From an aff. Roholtiella sp. LEGE 12411 (GTDB lineage Bacteria > Cyanobacteriota > Cyanobacteriia > Cyanobacteriales > Nostocaceae), in contig NZ_JADEXR010000031.1 of assembly GCF_015206995.1 (NCBI RefSeq), forward strand, positions 1-52,181: a DNA stretch of 52,181 nucleotides. The letters run 5' to 3'. The notes below the pieces were generated by a model that was not told the DNA's origin, made no database searches, and saw only the letters and a list, made by a program, of their open reading frames with translations. Both the position numbers and the translations under genes were made by a program. Shown piece after piece: positions 25,751 to 32,889 of the stretch; the first letter of the stretch is position 1; the number at the start of each line of letters is the position of its first letter.

Positions 25751-28390
25751 TTATTTCTCTTTTTCCTGTAGAAGCGATCGCCAATCTGCAATTGCTTGTT
25801 CTGTCCATAACCAATTGCTACTCAGTTTATTTATCTGAAAATTTATGGGATCATCCTTAAGCACCATTTGGCTTTGTTTTATCGCTTCATTAATATACTG
25901 TGCTTGTTTATTAGCAGGTTGATTAGGCGCAGATTTATACAGCCCAATGGCTAAACCAGCATAAGAAGTTAAGGCATCCCGAGGTAATGCTCCTTTGAAT
26001 AATATAGCAGCGTTAGAGGGAGTGTTCTGCTGTTTGAGAGCTAAATTCAAAGCCTTGAACCAAGAGTCATTAGCTCGATTCAGATTGCCTTCTGCGTAGT
26101 AGGCAAATCCCAAAGCATTATTATATAAAAGCGATTCTGGTTGAGCTTTTGCAGCATTTTCCCAGTAACGGCGGGCATCATCGACACTATATTTATTATC
26201 TCCAGTTTGGATAAACTGCCACGCTAATCGCCCCTTAAAAAAGTTGACAGATGGATCACCTATTTGTTGATTGGGAACCAGCTTCAGAGCAGCTTCAGCC
26301 CCAGCAAGTGCGCCACGATTAAGTAATTCTTCTACAGCTAACAACCCAGCTTGTAAGTCGCCCTGGCTCAGTTTTTGAGTGGCGGTGGCGGTGACAATTC
26401 CAGTTGGGGCTGTATTTAAATCGATAATCGGCTGTTTTTGAATGGGTAGAGACTGAATCGATGGGATCTCAGGTAAAGTTGCTTGAGGTTGTTGTCTCAA
26501 CCAATTGAAACCGATGATAGTGGCGATCGCACTCACGCCCACAATACCAACAATCGGCCACAGCTTGCGGCGTTGGGTACGACGTTTGCCTGAAATTGGT
26601 TGCTGCGATGCCTGCGGCGGGCTACGCCTACGCAAAAGATGGGGACTCTCCCAATCTCTTTCAAAATGCCCAGTCGTTGGTATCTCTGTAACTGGGTCTT
26701 CTCCCCATAATCTTGCTTCTTGAGCCTGGGAAGTTATTTCTTCTGAAACCCGCATTTCCTGAAGATTATTTTCTTGAATTTGTTGCACCAGTTCTGCATT
26801 CATAGAAGTTTTTTCAGGTGCAGCTTTTTGGTTATCTAGCTGGCGAAACAAATCCGAAACGATCGCAGAATCTTCTGCATAGCTGGGGTCATCATACTCA
26901 ATTTCATCAACGAGATCGCCCCAGGTATCTTCACCTAGCCAATCCATCTCAGAATCGCGTGCTAAACCAGAAGGAATCATTTCCTCGATTACTAGTGGCA
27001 CATCGGTATCATCTACCACAGCAGAGTACATTGAACTAGAAGTTGTCGTTAGAGGTGAATGATACTGGCTTAATGACTCTGGACTCTCAGATAAATAAAT
27101 TTCCGGGCTAAGAAAACCATCAAATTCTGGCTGGAGATACAAAATGGGTAATGCCCAATACATCTGGTGAGAACCATAGGCAGAAATCAATCCTTGGCGT
27201 ACGCGACTCACGCACAAATCCACAGGATATCCCTGACTCAAGTTACGGTAAAACAATTGTGTTAGCGTCACCGCCACTTCATCGGGAATGCGTTCTGACA
27301 TCGCCAAAACACTCCGCAGCCCTCGTTTCACCAAACTTTCGGCGAGGTTACGTTCGCCCGTATCTCCAGAGGCATTGTGTGTAGCTGTATATGCCCCCAA
27401 GCAGGAGTTAAACACTGCCATTTGGATATTATTGTTGACGAGCAAGCCAGCCAGATCATCCCCGCTCAAAGTTTCCGTCAAACCAGTTCTCTTACTGACA
27501 AGATAAATTTCTCCGCCATTGGAACCTAAATTACTATGACCAGAGTAGTGCAGAACATGGTATCTTCCTTGTTCAAGCGCCTGCGTCAGTTCTTCCCGCC
27601 CTGGTTGGTCTAACAGAGTAAGTTCAATTTCTGGCAGATGATTGTTACTTTCAACAGATCGCAGTATTTGACGGTGAAGTTCAGCTTGCAGTTTGACAGC
27701 TTCTTGCTTAAGCAAGTCAAGACGGACTTGATCTGTGGGGGAAGCAATTACCATCAACACTTTCACGCCACCTTCTTCCAGTGGTGACGGGATATTTCTT
27801 GAGCGCAACCGAGATGCTCCTAAAATTCCACTTTGAAACCGCGAGAAAGCCACATAAGGCCCAGTAGCCAGAGGGCGATCGCCCGCGTGCATCACTTCCC
27901 AAGGCAGACGAGCTAACCTAGTGTCTTTTAATCCCAAACGCAAGCGTAATACTTGTTGGTGGTTCTGAGCAATACCTTGGGCAGTAATCCAACTATCTCT
28001 GAGAGTGCCTTGAAACAGCGCATTATAAAATTGTTGACCCAACGCCACTAAGTTTACAGAGTTTCTAGCGATGCCTTCGGCGGACTGCATCAACGCATCT
28101 CCCTGTAATACCGACTTCAAAGGGTCATTCATCAAATGTCCAGCAGCTGCTAACCAATCAGCTACCGGCCAAGTCACCAATTCTTCAGCCAATGGCACCC
28201 CAGGCGCGACCTGTTCCGTCCGCACCAAGTAGTCGTTTTGCCCTACTGGGGTTACGGAAATGTGAAATTCCTGGGTCACAGCTTCTGTTCGCCTCCTAAA
28301 TCTGGTTTGAAACGCGAAAGTTTCAAGTCGATTTTTCACTCCCTCTGATAACTTTAGATGCACCCCGCCACTGAATGTTTCTGATTTCAA
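25751..28390 (-). CDS. hetF: Heterocyst differentiation protein HetF (CHAT protease with TPRs)
   Basis: A large CHAT-domain (caspase-like) protease needed for heterocyst formation in Nostoc PCC 7120, where it keeps the HetR regulator at working levels. The CHAT core shows H285 in HYSGHS and the nucleophile C330 in MAVFNSCLG. An acidic linker (about 430-600) follows, then one membrane helix near 610-631 (LWPIVGIVGVSAIATIIGF) and TPR-like helices (about 670-840). No ATG exists near the N-terminus and a stop lies just upstream, so the start is TTG 28390 or GTG 28363. Residues near 588-597 (RRRSPPQASQ) come from an inserted short repeat. The identity is supported by the adjacent NsiR1 array. The 5' leader would be antisense to NsiR1 copy 1. 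Confidence 0.9.
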   Translation of the reverse strand: MKSETFSGGVHLKLSEGVKNRLETFAFQTRFRRRTEAVTQEFHISVTPVGQNDYLVRTEQVAPGVPLAEELVTWPVADWLAAAGHLMNDPLKSVLQGDALMQSAEGIARNSVNLVALGQQFYNALFQGTLRDSWITAQGIAQNHQQVLRLRLGLKDTRLARLPWEVMHAGDRPLATGPYVAFSRFQSGILGASRLRSRNIPSPLEEGGVKVLMVIASPTDQVRLDLLKQEAVKLQAELHRQILRSVESNNHLPEIELTLLDQPGREELTQALEQGRYHVLHYSGHSNLGSNGGEIYLVSKRTGLTETLSGDDLAGLLVNNNIQMAVFNSCLGAYTATHNASGDTGERNLAESLVKRGLRSVLAMSERIPDEVAVTLTQLFYRNLSQGYPVDLCVSRVRQGLISAYGSHQMYWALPILYLQPEFDGFLSPEIYLSESPESLSQYHSPLTTTSSSMYSAVVDDTDVPLVIEEMIPSGLARDSEMDWLGEDTWGDLVDEIEYDDPSYAEDSAIVSDLFRQLDNQKAAPEKTSMNAELVQQIQENNLQEMRVSEEITSQAQEARLWGEDPVTEIPTTGHFERDWESPHLLRRRSPPQASQQPISGKRRTQRRKLWPIVGIVGVSAIATIIGFNWLRQQPQATLPEIPSIQSLPIQKQPIIDLNTAPTGIVTATATQKLSQGDLQAGLLAVEELLNRGALAGAEAALKLVPNQQIGDPSVNFFKGRLAWQFIQTGDNKYSVDDARRYWENAAKAQPESLLYNNALGFAYYAEGNLNRANDSWFKALNLALKQQNTPSNAAILFKGALPRDALTSYAGLAIGLYKSAPNQPANKQAQYINEAIKQSQMVLKDDPINFQINKLSSNWLWTEQAIADWRSLLQEKEK
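26602..26633. repeat. Short dispersed repeat inside hetF
   Basis: This copy of the GCGATGCCTGCGGCGGGC repeat (see 2533-2564) keeps the hetF frame and adds a peptide reading about RRRSPPQASQ in the linker before the membrane helix. Confidence 0.65.
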
Positions 28391-28454
28391 CGGCTTTGCT
28401 TTTCTGCCTTTACAACTTTATCCGGATCGGATTGCTTACGCCTAGAACACTTGA

Positions 28455-28516
28455 TTGGTAGATGCACCTTGATCTTCAACTCCCCTGGTTGGCTAACACC
28501 CACTGGGGGTTTTTTT
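28455..28516 (+). ncRNA. nsiR1: NsiR1 sRNA, copy 1
   Basis: The promoter is TCCGGA at 28421-28426, a 16-base spacer, and TAGAAC at 28443-28448. A stem of CCCC/GGGG ends in seven T's at 28510-28516. It differs from the consensus by TTGATCTTCAACT in the middle. It is the copy nearest to hetF and is transcribed away from it; the hetF leader must cross it in antisense if its start lies upstream. Confidence 0.85.
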
Positions 28517-28593
28517 AATTTTGGCAAACAACAGCAACCCTTTGATGCAGTTATTCTTGAGCAGAAAATTGTGCTTAACCCTAGAATACTTTA

Positions 28594-28640
28594 CTGGTAG
28601 ATGCACCTTGATCTTCAACTTCCCTAGTCAGTTAAGTAAG
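28594..28640 (+). pseudogene. Decayed NsiR1 unit 2
   Basis: It retains TAGAAT (28582-28587) and the start CTGGTAGATGCACC with the same TTGATCTTCAACT variant as copy 1, so the two were sister duplicates. The -35 box reads AGCAGA instead of TCCGGA, and the terminator half is lost where an inverted-repeat element begins at 28641. Confidence 0.75.
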
Positions 28641-28750
28641 TGGACGTAATTACATGTCAGATAAAACCTTTGTTCGTAGTGAGGGATTTATCGCTCTGTA
28701 TCTGTATAAGGTTTCAAAAGCCTAAAACCGTTTCTTACTACGAGCGTCCA
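28641..28750. repeat. 110-bp imperfect inverted-repeat element in the array
   Basis: The outer ends are TGGACG (28641-28646) and CGTCCA (28745-28750). Inner arms are TCGTAGTGAG (28674-28683) and CTTACTACGA (28734-28743). It replaces the 3' half of NsiR1 unit 2, so it is probably a MITE that inactivated that copy. It codes for nothing. Confidence 0.6.
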
Positions 28751-28860
28751 TTTAATTGAGCCATGCTAGTTACTATTCACTAGGTTTTTTTGCACACAAC
28801 AACGAATCGATCTTTTAGTCAATTTCTCCGGAGGATGATGTTCAACCTGAGAACATTTAA

Positions 28861-28922
28861 TTGGTAGATGCACCCTGATAACTAGCTCCCCTGGTTGGCT
28901 AACACCCACTGGGGGGTTTTTT
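28861..28922 (+). ncRNA. nsiR1: NsiR1 sRNA, copy 3
   Basis: TCCGGA at 28827-28832, 16-base spacer, GAGAAC at 28849-28854. The terminator stem has six G's and six T's. Promoter spacer and 5' part match copies 9 and 10, which lie 1 kb away, rather than its direct neighbours. Confidence 0.85.
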
Positions 28923-28988
28923 ATGTTGAGTAAGCAGCAACACCTCCCAACACACCAATTTTTTTACTAGAGCCTACTGGTTATTTAA

Positions 28989-29020
28989 TTGGTAGGTATA
29001 CCCTGATATCTATTCGTGTA
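28989..29020 (+). pseudogene. Decayed NsiR1 unit 4
   Basis: Only the 5' portion is recognisable (TTGGTAGGTATACCCTGAT). It has neither a TCCGGA box at the expected place nor a terminator. Followed by about 200 bp of unrelated sequence. Confidence 0.65.
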
Positions 29021-29218
29021 AACTTAAGAGTAAAATCCTTACCCAATAGACTTTTTCCTCGTTCCTTGCCATAAGCGAAGAAGTGCAATTTGGGAAGTTA
29101 TGCCAAACATTTATCGTACAAGAGGTATCAGCCCCCTAGATAGCATTCCTCGGCTCAACCTGGTAAATAGAAATAGAATGTAGCCCATAAGGAAGCTACA
29201 AGATTAAATTTACAACAG

Positions 29219-29274
29219 TGCCTGACCTGATAACTCACTCCTCTAGTTGGCTAACACCCATTGGAAGTTTTTTT
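29219..29274 (+). pseudogene. Decayed NsiR1 unit 5
   Basis: The 3' two thirds is preserved (CCTGATAACTCACTCC, GGCTAACACCCATTGG, then T7), but the G-run of the stem is changed to GGAAG and the 5' end and promoter are lost. Confidence 0.65.
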
Positions 29275-29471
29275 GGTGAGCAAACATTAATAAAATCAAT
29301 CTAGTTCACATCTTGCACCAGTCAAAAACTGGGTTTCTTACAATTCCTAAACCTGAAAACCTAGATTTTTCATACATAAATCCGGTTTCTCAGATTTTAT
29401 TAAAAACGTTGCCAGATATCAAATATAACCAAATTTGTCCGGTGGATAGCAGTTAACTTTAGAAAATCTAA

Positions 29472-29531
29472 TTCGTACATATACCCTGTTAATTCACCCC
29501 CATAGCTGGCTAACACCCACTGGGGGTTTTT
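29472..29531 (+). ncRNA. nsiR1: NsiR1 sRNA, copy 6 (divergent)
   Basis: The promoter has TCCGGT at 29438-29443 and TAGAAA at 29460-29465, spacer 16. The RNA starts TTCGTACATATACCC instead of TTGGTAGATGCACCC, so its 5' seed differs from the others, while the GGCTAACACCCACTGGGGG terminator is intact. It may target other messages. Confidence 0.75.
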
Positions 29532-29606
29532 CTGGTTAGGATCACCATCAAGGCTTAATTGTGACAATTTTATCCGGAAGGTAGTGCTTATCCTTAGAAT
29601 ATTTAA

Positions 29607-29666
29607 CTGGTAGATGCACCCTGATAACTAACTCCCCTAGTAGGCTAACACCCATTGGGGGTTTTT
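29607..29666 (+). ncRNA. nsiR1: NsiR1 sRNA, copy 7
   Basis: TCCGGA at 29573-29578 and TAGAAT at 29595-29600, the best -10 box of the array. The body matches the consensus. The T-run is five bases. Confidence 0.85.
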
Positions 29667-29741
29667 CCGTTTGGCATCACAATCAACAGTTAATTGTGAT
29701 ATTTTTATCCGGAAGGTAGTGCTTATCCCCAGAATATTTAA

Positions 29742-29803
29742 TTGGTAGATGCACCCTGATAACTAACTCCCCTAGTAGGCTAACACCCATTGGGGGTTTT
29801 TTT
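29742..29803 (+). ncRNA. nsiR1: NsiR1 sRNA, copy 8
   Basis: TCCGGA at 29708-29713 and CAGAAT at 29730-29735. The promoter spacer AGGTAGTGCTTATCC is shared with copy 7, its direct duplicate 135 bp upstream. Strong seven-T terminator. Confidence 0.85.
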
Positions 29804-29851
29804 ATTTTAAAAATTTCTCCGGAGGATGATGTTCAACCTGAGAACATTTAA

Positions 29852-29913
29852 TTGGTAGATGCACCCTGATAACTCACTCCCCTGGTAGGCTAACACCCAT
29901 TGGGGGTTTTTTT
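29852..29913 (+). ncRNA. nsiR1: NsiR1 sRNA, copy 9
   Basis: TCCGGA at 29818-29823 and GAGAAC at 29840-29845. Nearly identical to copy 10, exactly 110 bp apart, so this is a recent duplication or conversion. Confidence 0.85.
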
Positions 29914-29961
29914 ATTTTAAAAATTTCTCCGGAGGATGATGTTCAACCTGAGAACATTTAA

Positions 29962-30023
29962 TTGGTAGATGCACCCTGATAACTCACTCCCCTAGTAGGT
30001 TAACACCCATTGGGGGTTTTTTT
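29962..30023 (+). ncRNA. nsiR1: NsiR1 sRNA, copy 10
   Basis: TCCGGA at 29928-29933 and GAGAAC at 29950-29955. Last unit of the array, ending in seven T's. It differs from copy 9 at only a couple of bases in the loop region. Confidence 0.85.
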
Positions 30024-30363
30024 AGCTTGCATACCCTGGGACGATACTGTGGAGTGCGGCATTTTCCCTGTAACTAGTCTGTTATTGCTACTCTTATCGC
30101 CATTACTAGTAGACTTTGATTGTCTTGCTGTTATGTGCAAAGAGCGAAACCTACCCCCTCATTCCCTAAATCGCTTTCCTTATATTGTGAGCCAGAGATG
30201 TCAACCAAAAATGATCGCTGTGATATTTAATCACATTCTTAATTTTTTTTCTATATTTTGACGTTAAATTCTTTAACTTCCATTGTTTAGTCTTTCAGCA
30301 ATATGCTGAGGTTCATAATCTATGCTAAAATATTTTGCCTAAAGCCAAGAGATTCACCAGTCC
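30024..30363. other. Gap after the NsiR1 array
   Basis: 340 bp with no further NsiR1 unit. It presumably holds the promoter of the gene at 30364. An 83-codon frame through the end of the array is an artefact of the repeats. Confidence 0.45.
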
Positions 30364-30687
30364 ATGAATTTAGCTGTGATTAAGTTCTCCTCAGAAGAAT
30401 GTGGTATCTGCCACAAAATGTCATTTTATGACAAAAAGGTAGCTGAGGAATTAGGTTTACAGTTTATCGATGTGAAAATGCAGGATACGGCTTCTTACCG
30501 CAAGTATCGCAAGATTTTACTAACTCAGTATCCTGATAAATCTGAAATGGGATGGCCTACTTACATCATCTGTGATTCTCCAGAAGCAGAATTTCAGATT
30601 GTGGGTGAGGTAAAAGGTGGTCATCCCAAAGGGGAGTTTAGAAGTCGTCTACAAGAAGTTCTGAATTCCACAGTTAGTCAGAACTAA
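30364..30687 (+). CDS. Thioredoxin-like protein with CGIC site
   Basis: A 107-residue cytoplasmic protein. The start AVIKFSSEECGICHKMSFYDKKVAEELGL has the beta-strand/CxxC/helix of thioredoxins, with C13 and C16, and a cis-Pro segment GWPTYIIC follows near 60. The spacing and a KYRKILLTQYPDKSEM insertion are unlike classical thioredoxin, so it is a divergent family member. Redox activity is likely. It converges with the next gene, and the 3' ends overlap by 14 bp. Confidence 0.8.
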   Translation: MNLAVIKFSSEECGICHKMSFYDKKVAEELGLQFIDVKMQDTASYRKYRKILLTQYPDKSEMGWPTYIICDSPEAEFQIVGEVKGGHPKGEFRSRLQEVLNSTVSQN

Positions 30688-31044: not shown

Positions 31045-32889
31045 TTATGCTGGTTCTCCGTTGTTTTTCAATGCTAAACGAGCAAGTCCATAACAGAGTA
31101 GGGCATTGACTATGAGAAAGACGCGTGCTATGTTACCACTTCCTAATCCCCATACTGCTGGGTCGTAAACTGCACTTATTGTTAAACATGCAGCTATACC
31201 TAGGGTTGAACCAATCGCAAACCATTTCCAACTAGAATTCCCTAGCAGCAATGCCATTAACACAATGGGAATTAGCACGCTAGCAAATAGAGGATTAAAA
31301 GCATCAGTTCCCTGAAGCGTATTGCCTAATTCGGGAATTGAACTGCCTAAAACTCGCAAAGGCCACTGAGGAAGATCAAAGATATAGATTCCCTTGAGGA
31401 AAAATAACCCAGAACTGCCAGCAATTAAGCCACTGGATAATGGCCAACTCCAAGAGAAGGGGAAGTAAACCCGTAAAAACCAAGCCAGCAAATAGGAACC
31501 AACTACCATTAAAACCTTGGGTATTAGTGCTACTGCACCACCATCAATCCAAAAGCCGGGGTTAAGATAGCCGCTATCCCGTAACCATCGGAAGAAATCT
31601 TGAAAACTGATTTGCCCCCCGAAGGCTAGTTTGACTGCTGCTTCGGCATTGAGTTGCCCAGCGCCATAATAGTTCAAACCATCATCCTGGATAACTCGTG
31701 CTGACTGCTTAAGAACTTTTAAAATTTCATCTGGTTCTTTGATTCCAGCGGCTTTGATTAATGCCGTAACACCAGCAACATGTGGGGAAGCCATGCTTGT
31801 ACCCTGCAAGCCAAGAAATACCCCTTCGCCGTTTTCGTCGATAGTTTCTTGCAGAATCTTACCAGCATCGCTACCACCAGGAGCGGAGATGTCTACCCCT
31901 CCACCAAAGTTGGAATAGGGTGCTCTTTCGCCATCTGGGCCAAATGCTGAAACACCGATGACGTGGGGATAGCGGGCTGGATAGCTTGACCCATTGGCAT
32001 TTTCATTCCCAGCTGCTGCAACGATCGCTACACCTTTTCTATGAGCATACTCGATCGCTTGCTTCAATAACTGACTTTCACCACCACCACCCAAGCTCAT
32101 ATTAATTACATCTGCGCCTTGATCAGCAGCAAATTTAATCGCTTCGGCGATATCGGCAACTGTACCACCGCCATAGGAACTGAGTACCTTTAATGGCATC
32201 AGATTGGCTTCGTAGGCAATTCCAGCGACGCCATATTTGTTATTAGTGGCTTGGGCTATAGTACCAGCAACATGGGTTCCGTGTCCGTTATCGTCTTTGG
32301 CTTCTTCTTGGTCGTTCACAAAATCATAGCCTTTAACGAACTTTGTCTCATACAAGTCCCGCACACGCGTAATCCCGGTGTCAATTACAGCAACTGTGAT
32401 GCCGCTACCTTTGGTTTGACTCCATGCGCCTTCAATGCCGATTTTGTGTAGGTTCCATTGCTTGCTGTAATATTGGTCGTTGGGGCCTGTTAATGAGGGA
32501 CTTGCTTCGTCTTCTTGGGGGCGTAAAAATTCTCCCAGCCAAGCTGTTTTACCGGGATTTGGAATCTTGTATATGTAATTTGGTTCGATGAATTCCGTAG
32601 TTTTAGCGAATTGGGATTTTTTCAGTTCCTTAAGCCGCTGGCGATCGCCCTTGATAATATATACATTATCCTTCGCCGAAAACTTGTTGTCTAATTGGGG
32701 TGTAACGTTATATTGTTTTGCGATCGCTTGGAGATTTTGCTGCACTATCTCTGGTGGAATATCTTCCCGAAAATCAAGCAAAATGGTCTCAAACGCGCCT
32801 TTAGCTGCCAGTCCCTGAAAATTTAGGAAGCCAAATATAGCAGATCCCAACCCAATGACAAACAAGCACAATAATATAAGTCTTCTCAT
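31045..32889 (-). CDS. Membrane-anchored subtilisin-like serine protease (S8)
   Basis: A 614-residue secreted peptidase. An N-terminal signal/anchor (LILLCLFVIGLGSAIFGFL) is followed by an I9-type propeptide region to about 110. The catalytic triad is D170 (VAVIDTGI), H203 (DNGHGTHVAGT) and S365 (GTSMASPHVAG), with oxyanion N295 (AAAGNENANG). After about residue 440 come four to five membrane helices (VALIPKVLMVVGSYLLAWF, FNPLFASVLIPIVLMALLL), which ordinary subtilisins lack, so the protease domain is held at the membrane facing the periplasm. Substrate unknown. It is divergent from the gene at 33010. Confidence 0.92.
   Translation of the reverse strand: MRRLILLCLFVIGLGSAIFGFLNFQGLAAKGAFETILLDFREDIPPEIVQQNLQAIAKQYNVTPQLDNKFSAKDNVYIIKGDRQRLKELKKSQFAKTTEFIEPNYIYKIPNPGKTAWLGEFLRPQEDEASPSLTGPNDQYYSKQWNLHKIGIEGAWSQTKGSGITVAVIDTGITRVRDLYETKFVKGYDFVNDQEEAKDDNGHGTHVAGTIAQATNNKYGVAGIAYEANLMPLKVLSSYGGGTVADIAEAIKFAADQGADVINMSLGGGGESQLLKQAIEYAHRKGVAIVAAAGNENANGSSYPARYPHVIGVSAFGPDGERAPYSNFGGGVDISAPGGSDAGKILQETIDENGEGVFLGLQGTSMASPHVAGVTALIKAAGIKEPDEILKVLKQSARVIQDDGLNYYGAGQLNAEAAVKLAFGGQISFQDFFRWLRDSGYLNPGFWIDGGAVALIPKVLMVVGSYLLAWFLRVYFPFSWSWPLSSGLIAGSSGLFFLKGIYIFDLPQWPLRVLGSSIPELGNTLQGTDAFNPLFASVLIPIVLMALLLGNSSWKWFAIGSTLGIAACLTISAVYDPAVWGLGSGNIARVFLIVNALLCYGLARLALKNNGEPA

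Follow-up and report, generated by a model that had tools for sequence, protein, structure and literature searches.

Does the row of short repeats beside hetF in aff. Roholtiella sp. LEGE 12411 (Cyanobacteriales; Nostocaceae) encode small RNAs (sRNAs), and do such RNAs belong to heterocyst formation alone? The question arises from a window of 52,181 nucleotides—by which we mean the whole stretch of DNA analysed, contig NZ_JADEXR010000031.1 of assembly GCF_015206995.1, contig C155 in our numbering of this genome—for which an original prediction, made from the letters alone, had proposed ten units of NsiR1 upstream of hetF. NsiR1 is a known small RNA that helps cyanobacteria choose which cells become nitrogen-fixing heterocysts. 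We find that the stretch is a true tandem array of NsiR1 genes, unremarkable in kind and another case of a known system; further loci in the same genome, together with arrays in HetR-bearing genomes beyond the family, suggest an older, HetR-linked sRNA, with regulation of hetF joining later.

The whole window was scanned with Rfam model RF02399 (NsiR1), whose gathering score of 39 bits served as the cut-off for array units. This covariance-model search, which the original prediction had put forward as its own check, was positive for six units (63.4–72 bits, E-values of 2.8e-10 or better) at the RNA coordinates listed below for units 1, 3, 7, 8, 9 and 10. Four other stretches fell below the cut-off—29223–29275 and 29473–29534, each with 29.7 bits and an E-value of about 0.003, and those at 28990 (18.2 bits) and 28595 (17.9 bits), both with E-values of about 2—and these are divergent or interrupted NsiR1 units. 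In 14 control genomes nothing exceeded the cut-off in any scan, with sub-cut-off signal at an E-value of 1 in 10 of the 14 in one scan and in 1 in two others, while all 118 genomes sampled from the family of the window carried NsiR1 above it. The units of the array, with scores from RF02399, are as follows:

28421–28517, + strand: unit 1; TCCGGA box at 28421–28426, RNA at about 28456–28517; 67.2 bits.
28595–28791, + strand: unit 2, interrupted and without a TCCGGA box; 5' part at 28595–28634, 3' stem arm and T-run at 28773–28791; 17.9 bits.
28635–28772, strand not given: 138-bp insertion within unit 2, including one copy of a possible 5-bp duplication, AGTTA.
28827–28923, + strand: unit 3; TCCGGA box at 28827–28832, RNA at about 28862–28923; 72.0 bits.
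28990–29275, + strand: interrupted unit, originally counted as units 4 and 5; 5' half at 28990–29008, 3' half at 29226–29275; 18.2 and 29.7 bits.
29438–29534, + strand: unit 6, divergent; TCCGGT box at 29438–29443, three changes in the 5' core, terminator retained; 29.7 bits.
29573–29669, + strand: unit 7; TCCGGA box at 29573–29578, RNA at about 29608–29669; 63.4 bits.
29708–29804, + strand: unit 8; TCCGGA box at 29708–29713, RNA at about 29743–29804; 70.5 bits.
29818–29914, + strand: unit 9; TCCGGA box at 29818–29823, RNA at about 29853–29914; 68.0 bits; 110-bp step to unit 10.
29928–30024, + strand: unit 10; TCCGGA box at 29928–29933, RNA at about 29963–30024; 67.3 bits.

In each of the seven intact units, the first base of TCCGGA (six units) or TCCGGT (one) is located exactly 35 nt ahead of the opening T of the model, and a stem is followed by a T-run from nt 54–55. 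The shared motif that had been proposed for seven units is present in all of them at a fixed distance, and the sequence shows the 16-base spacer and the TAGAAT-like box as described. The 5' end of the intact units, UGGUAGAUGCACCCUG, is nearly invariant, and their stems differ. Beyond the window, among units picked by their exact core, a box with at most one mismatch lay at 34–35 nt in 117 of 123 distinct units from loci of the family, in 28 of 29 from L202, G150, G364, G377, G180 and G225, and in 19 of 21 others; a hairpin adjoined the T-run in 121 of the 123. We also selected units by box and terminator, the core serving only to decide between two neighbouring offsets, and among the 238 resulting candidates the core was exact in 139, had one to three changes in five, four changes in none and five or more in 94, at least two of which are real copies of a separate locus, locus C, out of register (L093, L094). 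The core is thus exact in 139 of the 144 units with at most three changes. Stems are likewise kept: nine genomes supplied 17 array units, in which the stem of 11 pairs was formed in 90.9% of cells, against at most 65.2% in slid controls, and five of the 11 pairs showed changes on both sides.

As for the number of units, the intact ones are confirmed, and we prefer a count of nine to the ten originally proposed, two of the ten being halves of a single copy. We rejected units 4 and 5 as separate entities because the same seven bases, CCTGATA, flank both sides of a 224-bp segment, so that the halves at 28990 (5') and 29223 (3') are better read as one copy apparently split by an insertion. A search of the same genome found no other copy of the 224-bp insert at an E-value of 0.001. 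A 5' half followed by other sequence recurs in two of the three same-genus arrays, and for this reason the split would be old. Unit 2 lacks the TCCGGA box both here and in three same-genus relatives (L096, L097 and L098), and its interruption is found only here among four same-genus genomes, the ortholog being whole in G046, G084 and G105. The 138-bp insertion responsible has related sequences at eight places in this genome, itself included (the best other one having 75% identity over 154 bases), and looks like a small dispersed mobile element. Copy 6, whose 5' end had been singled out as divergent, departs at three positions from an 11-nt core that hardly varies elsewhere—further than any other of the 144 units selected by promoter and terminator—and may on that account be losing function. 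The "about seven" RNA variants of the original prediction come down to six, since units 7 and 8 are identical across their first 59 nt. A repeat finder returned copy spacings of 110, 135 and 139 bp, among other steps. The three same-genus arrays hold 8, 8 and 9 units, and the copy number here is not unusual.

The genes that flank the array are these:

25751–28279, − strand: hetF, encoding the CHAT-domain protein HetF; open reading frame 25751–28390, with a likely GTG start inferred at 28279.
30364–30687, + strand: conserved gene for a 107-residue protein on the far side of the array, which adjoins arrays in relatives.
31045–32889, − strand: subtilase (S8) with DUF5942 (Pfam PF00082 and PF19366).

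The divergent neighbour of copy 1 was named as HetF by the NCBIfam equivalog NF045509 (1495.6 bits against a cut-off of 1200) and matched Pfam CHAT, which places the array upstream of hetF, as had been foreseen; unit 1 is antisense and covers −177 to −238 relative to the likely start of hetF, a position compatible with antisense repression given the hetF start site at −256 in PCC 7120 (PMC8406250). Nine of nine genomes also encode another, shorter HetF-like protein (524–531 residues, 32–37% identity over part of its length). The order hetF, array, 107-residue gene is kept in relatives. By eye alone the 107-residue protein had seemed thioredoxin- or glutaredoxin-like, an assignment that we dropped, as it had no Pfam or NCBIfam match at an E-value of 1e-5. 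Homologues of the subtilase gene adjoin NsiR1 arrays in Oscillatoria nigro-viridis PCC 7112 and in two same-genus genomes. Some arrays are rearranged—those of G033 and G078 fall into two parts, one beside hetF and the other beside the 107-residue gene, and G026 and Nostoc sp. HK-01 (G098) have two arrays each, whose fetched flanks of 1.7 to 3.8 kb contain no hetF. In the latter two genomes hetF has a separate location, and the roughly 2.3 kb upstream of it yielded no NsiR1; lineages with such detached arrays represent a natural separation of cis and trans roles.

Several published systems come close to this array. In Nostoc PCC 7120, 12 tandem NsiR1 copies with individual DIF1 promoters lie upstream of hetF in the opposite direction and show early, heterocyst-specific, HetR-dependent expression (PMC9045159; PMC8406250); the copy number of about 12 stated in the original prediction agrees with the published figure, which is also given, for this strain and Nodularia spumigena CCY9414 alike, in PMC3610870. 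The likeness to PCC 7120 extends to units of about 60 nt in tandem, divergent from hetF and with DIF1 promoters, to the placing of copy 1 antisense to the hetF 5' untranslated region (UTR), and to a diverged copy 1 followed by copies more alike. Against these stand several differences: there are six units over the cut-off here, and seven with box and terminator, rather than 12; PCC 7120 has seven identical central copies, whereas here only copies 7 and 8 are identical (59 nt); and here two copies are interrupted and one core is damaged. N. spumigena CCY9414 likewise has its 12 repeats upstream of hetF (PMC3610870), more copies than here. The wider distribution of NsiR1 is already partly in print because of RNA162 of Limnospira indica PCC 8005, a 57-nt NsiR1-like RNA of a HetR-bearing organism without heterocysts (PMC8400943); that report concerns one strain, and its available text has no arrays, promoters, syntenic loci or survey. 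Multicopy "sibling" sRNAs (PMC9045159) resemble the present array in being near-identical copies with shared and private targets, but differ from it in that no sequence relation is claimed and each NsiR1 copy has a cell-type promoter.

We consider it very probable that the stretch is the NsiR1 array of this organism, built of self-contained units; in this account copy 1 would act in cis on hetF and the other copies in trans on a HetP-like mRNA, and the wider family suggests an older HetR-linked sRNA. The boxes, cores and terminators, the divergent hetF and the family membership can be read from the DNA itself. From these, each intact copy would be its own transcription unit, in which a TCCGGA (DIF1-type) −35 element and a −10 box drive an RNA of about 60 nt composed of the 5' end, a linker and an intrinsic terminator. 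By analogy with PCC 7120, expression would depend on HetR and take place in cells becoming heterocysts, and copy 1 would serve as a cis-acting antisense RNA to the hetF 5' UTR. The remaining copies would work in trans, forming base pairs over the start codon of the mRNA of a HetP-like gene on contig C115 of this genome and lifting a brake on commitment. Having several copies would increase the dose and free the linkers to diverge, with copy 1 then fitting hetF perfectly and hetP less well.

The predicted target of the other copies is modelled on PCC 7120, where the start codon of the hetP-like gene alr3234 is spanned by pairing with NsiR1.4 and, weakly, with NsiR1.1 (PMC9045159). The C115 gene has a two-part site, with UAUCAGGG before the AUG and CUACCA just after it, that matches copies 3 and 7 in their 5' part and linker. 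For these copies, the predicted energy with the C115 start region was −26.1 kcal/mol, lower than at any of the 56 start regions used as background; the figure was −24.1 (1/56) for copies 9 and 10 and −19.7 (4/56) for copy 1. HetP-family genes number two to four per genome in 11 of 11 genomes; of 36 such loci in 12 genomes we examined 34, the other two having no fetched locus. Ten genes were of the C115 type, defined by the shared sequence PLHFIPQRTYSRL, and the two-part site lay at the start codon in nine of them, the best duplex of G078 lying elsewhere. Some HetP genes of other types also pair at the start codon (L275 and L282, with 0/100 shuffles as low) and many do not. A pairing of −30.4 at HetP loci was dropped, as it came from a repeat beside both genes. 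Taken as a prediction, the C115 pairing supports the published mechanism for this organism.

Several observations weigh against this account. The value of −26.1 includes a far second helix, and the compact site with the first 20 nt has −19.8, as low as which came 1 of 100 shuffles; the energies ignore accessibility, and 24 RNA–gene pairs were tried. Pairing values of most copies were unexceptional at the two remaining HetP-like genes. Among the C115-type genes, shuffle ranks were moderate (0, 1, 4, 6, 7, 8, 8, 12 and 16 of 100, and 33 for the tenth gene), every genome was tested with the same single sRNA sequence, and related genes have sites in common through descent. For the cis effect, inactivation of nsiR1.1 in PCC 7120 changed a hetF promoter–gfp fusion little (PMC8406250), which lends no support to a strong cis effect at that level. 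Within the array, copy 2 and the split copy have no box and the core of copy 6 is damaged. Finally, when 27 units of loci A, B and C (the last two described below) were aligned with MAFFT, RNAalifold returned five pairs and no covariation; covariation was counted within array units only, because the stems of mixed loci differ in length and fall out of register.

An improbable alternative, though the best placed of its kind, is that the array is transcribed and only copy 1 matters, as a cis-antisense RNA of hetF, the rest being passive tandem duplicates. Tandem arrays grow and shrink easily, as the 110-bp steps of units 8, 9 and 10 illustrate, copies 2, 4/5 and 6 are interrupted or diverged, and the linker of copy 1 is common to copy 1 of same-genus relatives. 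Yet HK-01 and G026 each keep two arrays detached from hetF, the core is exact in nearly all of the units selected by box and terminator (139/144), and the published NsiR1.4, from central copies, targets alr3234 (PMC9045159). We regard as very unlikely a role of the repeats as DNA—a recombination-prone spacer, or multiple binding sites for the hetF promoter—with RNA as a by-product. That arrays are sites of rearrangement (G033 and G078 having split ones, G026 and HK-01 detached ones) and that the hetF start site of PCC 7120, at −256, lies within nsiR1.2 (PMC8406250) would fit such a role, but features of an RNA are kept, namely fixed box spacing, covarying stems and core conservation, and in 12 of 12 genomes a single-copy locus, locus B, lies far from hetF. 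The notion that chance or low-complexity repeats were misread as sRNA genes draws on the individual weakness of the stretches at 28595, 28990, 29223 and 29473, but is refuted by the six matches over the cut-off and their absence from all 14 control genomes, and is left with a negligible probability.

Two further NsiR1-type loci bear on our preferred account, that of self-contained units belonging to an older family. Locus B is a single 51-nt copy on contig C175 of the same genome (32655–32705; L010:4156–4206) that scored 51.5 bits with RF02399 and sits between cobM and lgt. We searched 11 hand-chosen genomes of the 118 with laxer filters (12 genomes including this one), finding locus B in all 11 with nearly identical sequence. 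Its upstream box is TTCCGGAT in 11 of the 12 genomes and TTCCTGAT in one; cobM (TIGR01465) adjoins it in 12/12 and lgt (TIGR00544) in 11/12, the exception being G078, whose contig stops at that point. At least 116 stretches of named genomes contain an exact 24-mer of locus B. Locus C comprises three tandem copies on contig C145 (L009:3160–3526, minus strand), one over the cut-off at 41.0 bits and two below it at 34.9 and 33.4 bits, with degenerate boxes (CCCGGA, TCCTGA); over the genomes compared, the box of locus C reads CCCGGA, TCCTGA or TCCGGA. It adjoins an ExoD-family gene (PF06055) here and in seven of the eight other genomes with such a match, in one to three copies; a ninth fetched stretch of this type (G105 C54) is a different place, and three of the 11 hand-chosen genomes gave no match to locus C. 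G103, which we took as N. spumigena CCY9414, had 12 array matches and locus B and no match to locus C. Within the literature searched, in the parts available and with the founding papers and supplements outside its scope, we met no description of locus B, locus C or the co-distribution with HetR, and a motif search of the literature returned unrelated work only among the matches listed.

Two side observations concern similar RNAs. G105 has an NsiR1-like unit (L095:1501–1554, 34.7 bits) whose upstream region is different and lacks a TCCGGA box. On contig C49 of the present genome, three minus-strand matches to RF02596 (cyano_het_sRNA) at L012:538–588, 843–895 and 1871–1923 scored 27.0, 34.2 and 25.2 bits, below the cut-off of 35.7, across 1.4 kb; these are possibly another repeated heterocyst sRNA.

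NsiR1 also occurs beyond heterocyst formers. O. nigro-viridis PCC 7112 (G377, Oscillatoriales), which we take to be non-heterocystous, has five array matches over the cut-off (39.4–53.5 bits) with TCCGGA promoters, beside the homologue of the window's subtilase gene, and a locus B match too. Locus B lies between cobM and lgt in O. acuminata PCC 6304 (G225) and beside cobM in Argonema antarcticum (L202, Oscillatoriales); in Allocoleopsis franciscana PCC 7113 (G180) the core lies beside lgt and the Rfam match elsewhere. In G302 and G227 locus B is itself a tandem array, of five and four copies.

We then searched 388 genomes of the order for NsiR1, HetR_C and HetP, with strict NsiR1 filters that make its counts a lower bound. 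NsiR1 was found in 258 at an E-value of 1e-4 (256 over the cut-off), HetR_C in 235 and HetP in 181. All 71 genomes of the window's family had NsiR1, HetR and HetP. Among the other 317, NsiR1 and HetR occurred together in 162, HetR only in 2, NsiR1 only in 25 and neither in 128—that is, NsiR1 was present in 162 of 164 HetR-positive genomes against 25 of 153 HetR-negative ones. For HetP the corresponding numbers were 66 with both, 44 with HetP only, 121 with NsiR1 only and 86 with neither, and we rejected the idea that NsiR1 tracks HetP (odds ratio of 1.07 outside the family); presence or absence of HetP does not tell heterocyst formation. A separate 21-mer search allowing up to two mismatches matched 182 of the 388, and its reversed control matched one genome. 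Judged from these genomic counts, which ignore relatedness, NsiR1 appears to follow HetR, not HetP, among the 388 genomes. A simple reading of this kind is opposed by the 25 exceptions, 10 of which fall in family f32 and 6 in f18, with three weak matches in f8; several genomes are also incomplete. NsiR1 without a HetR_C match at an E-value of 1e-10 was seen in G148, G170, G188 and seven more genomes of f32, and in G161, G293, G311, G329, G343 and G348 of f18, and the NsiR1 family may survive, or have another role, without HetR.

The array itself being a known system, the interest lies in its surroundings—the further loci and the HetR pattern, both of them genomic observations. One practical consequence is that deletion of the hetF array may leave behind a second RNA with the same 5' core, that of locus B, in a strain that carries it. 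To the broader proposition we assign about an even chance: that NsiR1 did not originate as a heterocyst RNA but is an ancient sRNA family of HetR-bearing filamentous cyanobacteria, with a 5' pairing region that stays fixed, TCCGGA promoters, several conserved loci and arrays expanded more than once, present before heterocysts and linked to hetF later. If this is true, the DIF1 promoter and NsiR1 would be parts of an original HetR programme in filaments without heterocysts, and, as NsiR1 would then follow HetR rather than heterocysts, the role of HetR in such filaments would become testable, with NsiR1 as its readable output.

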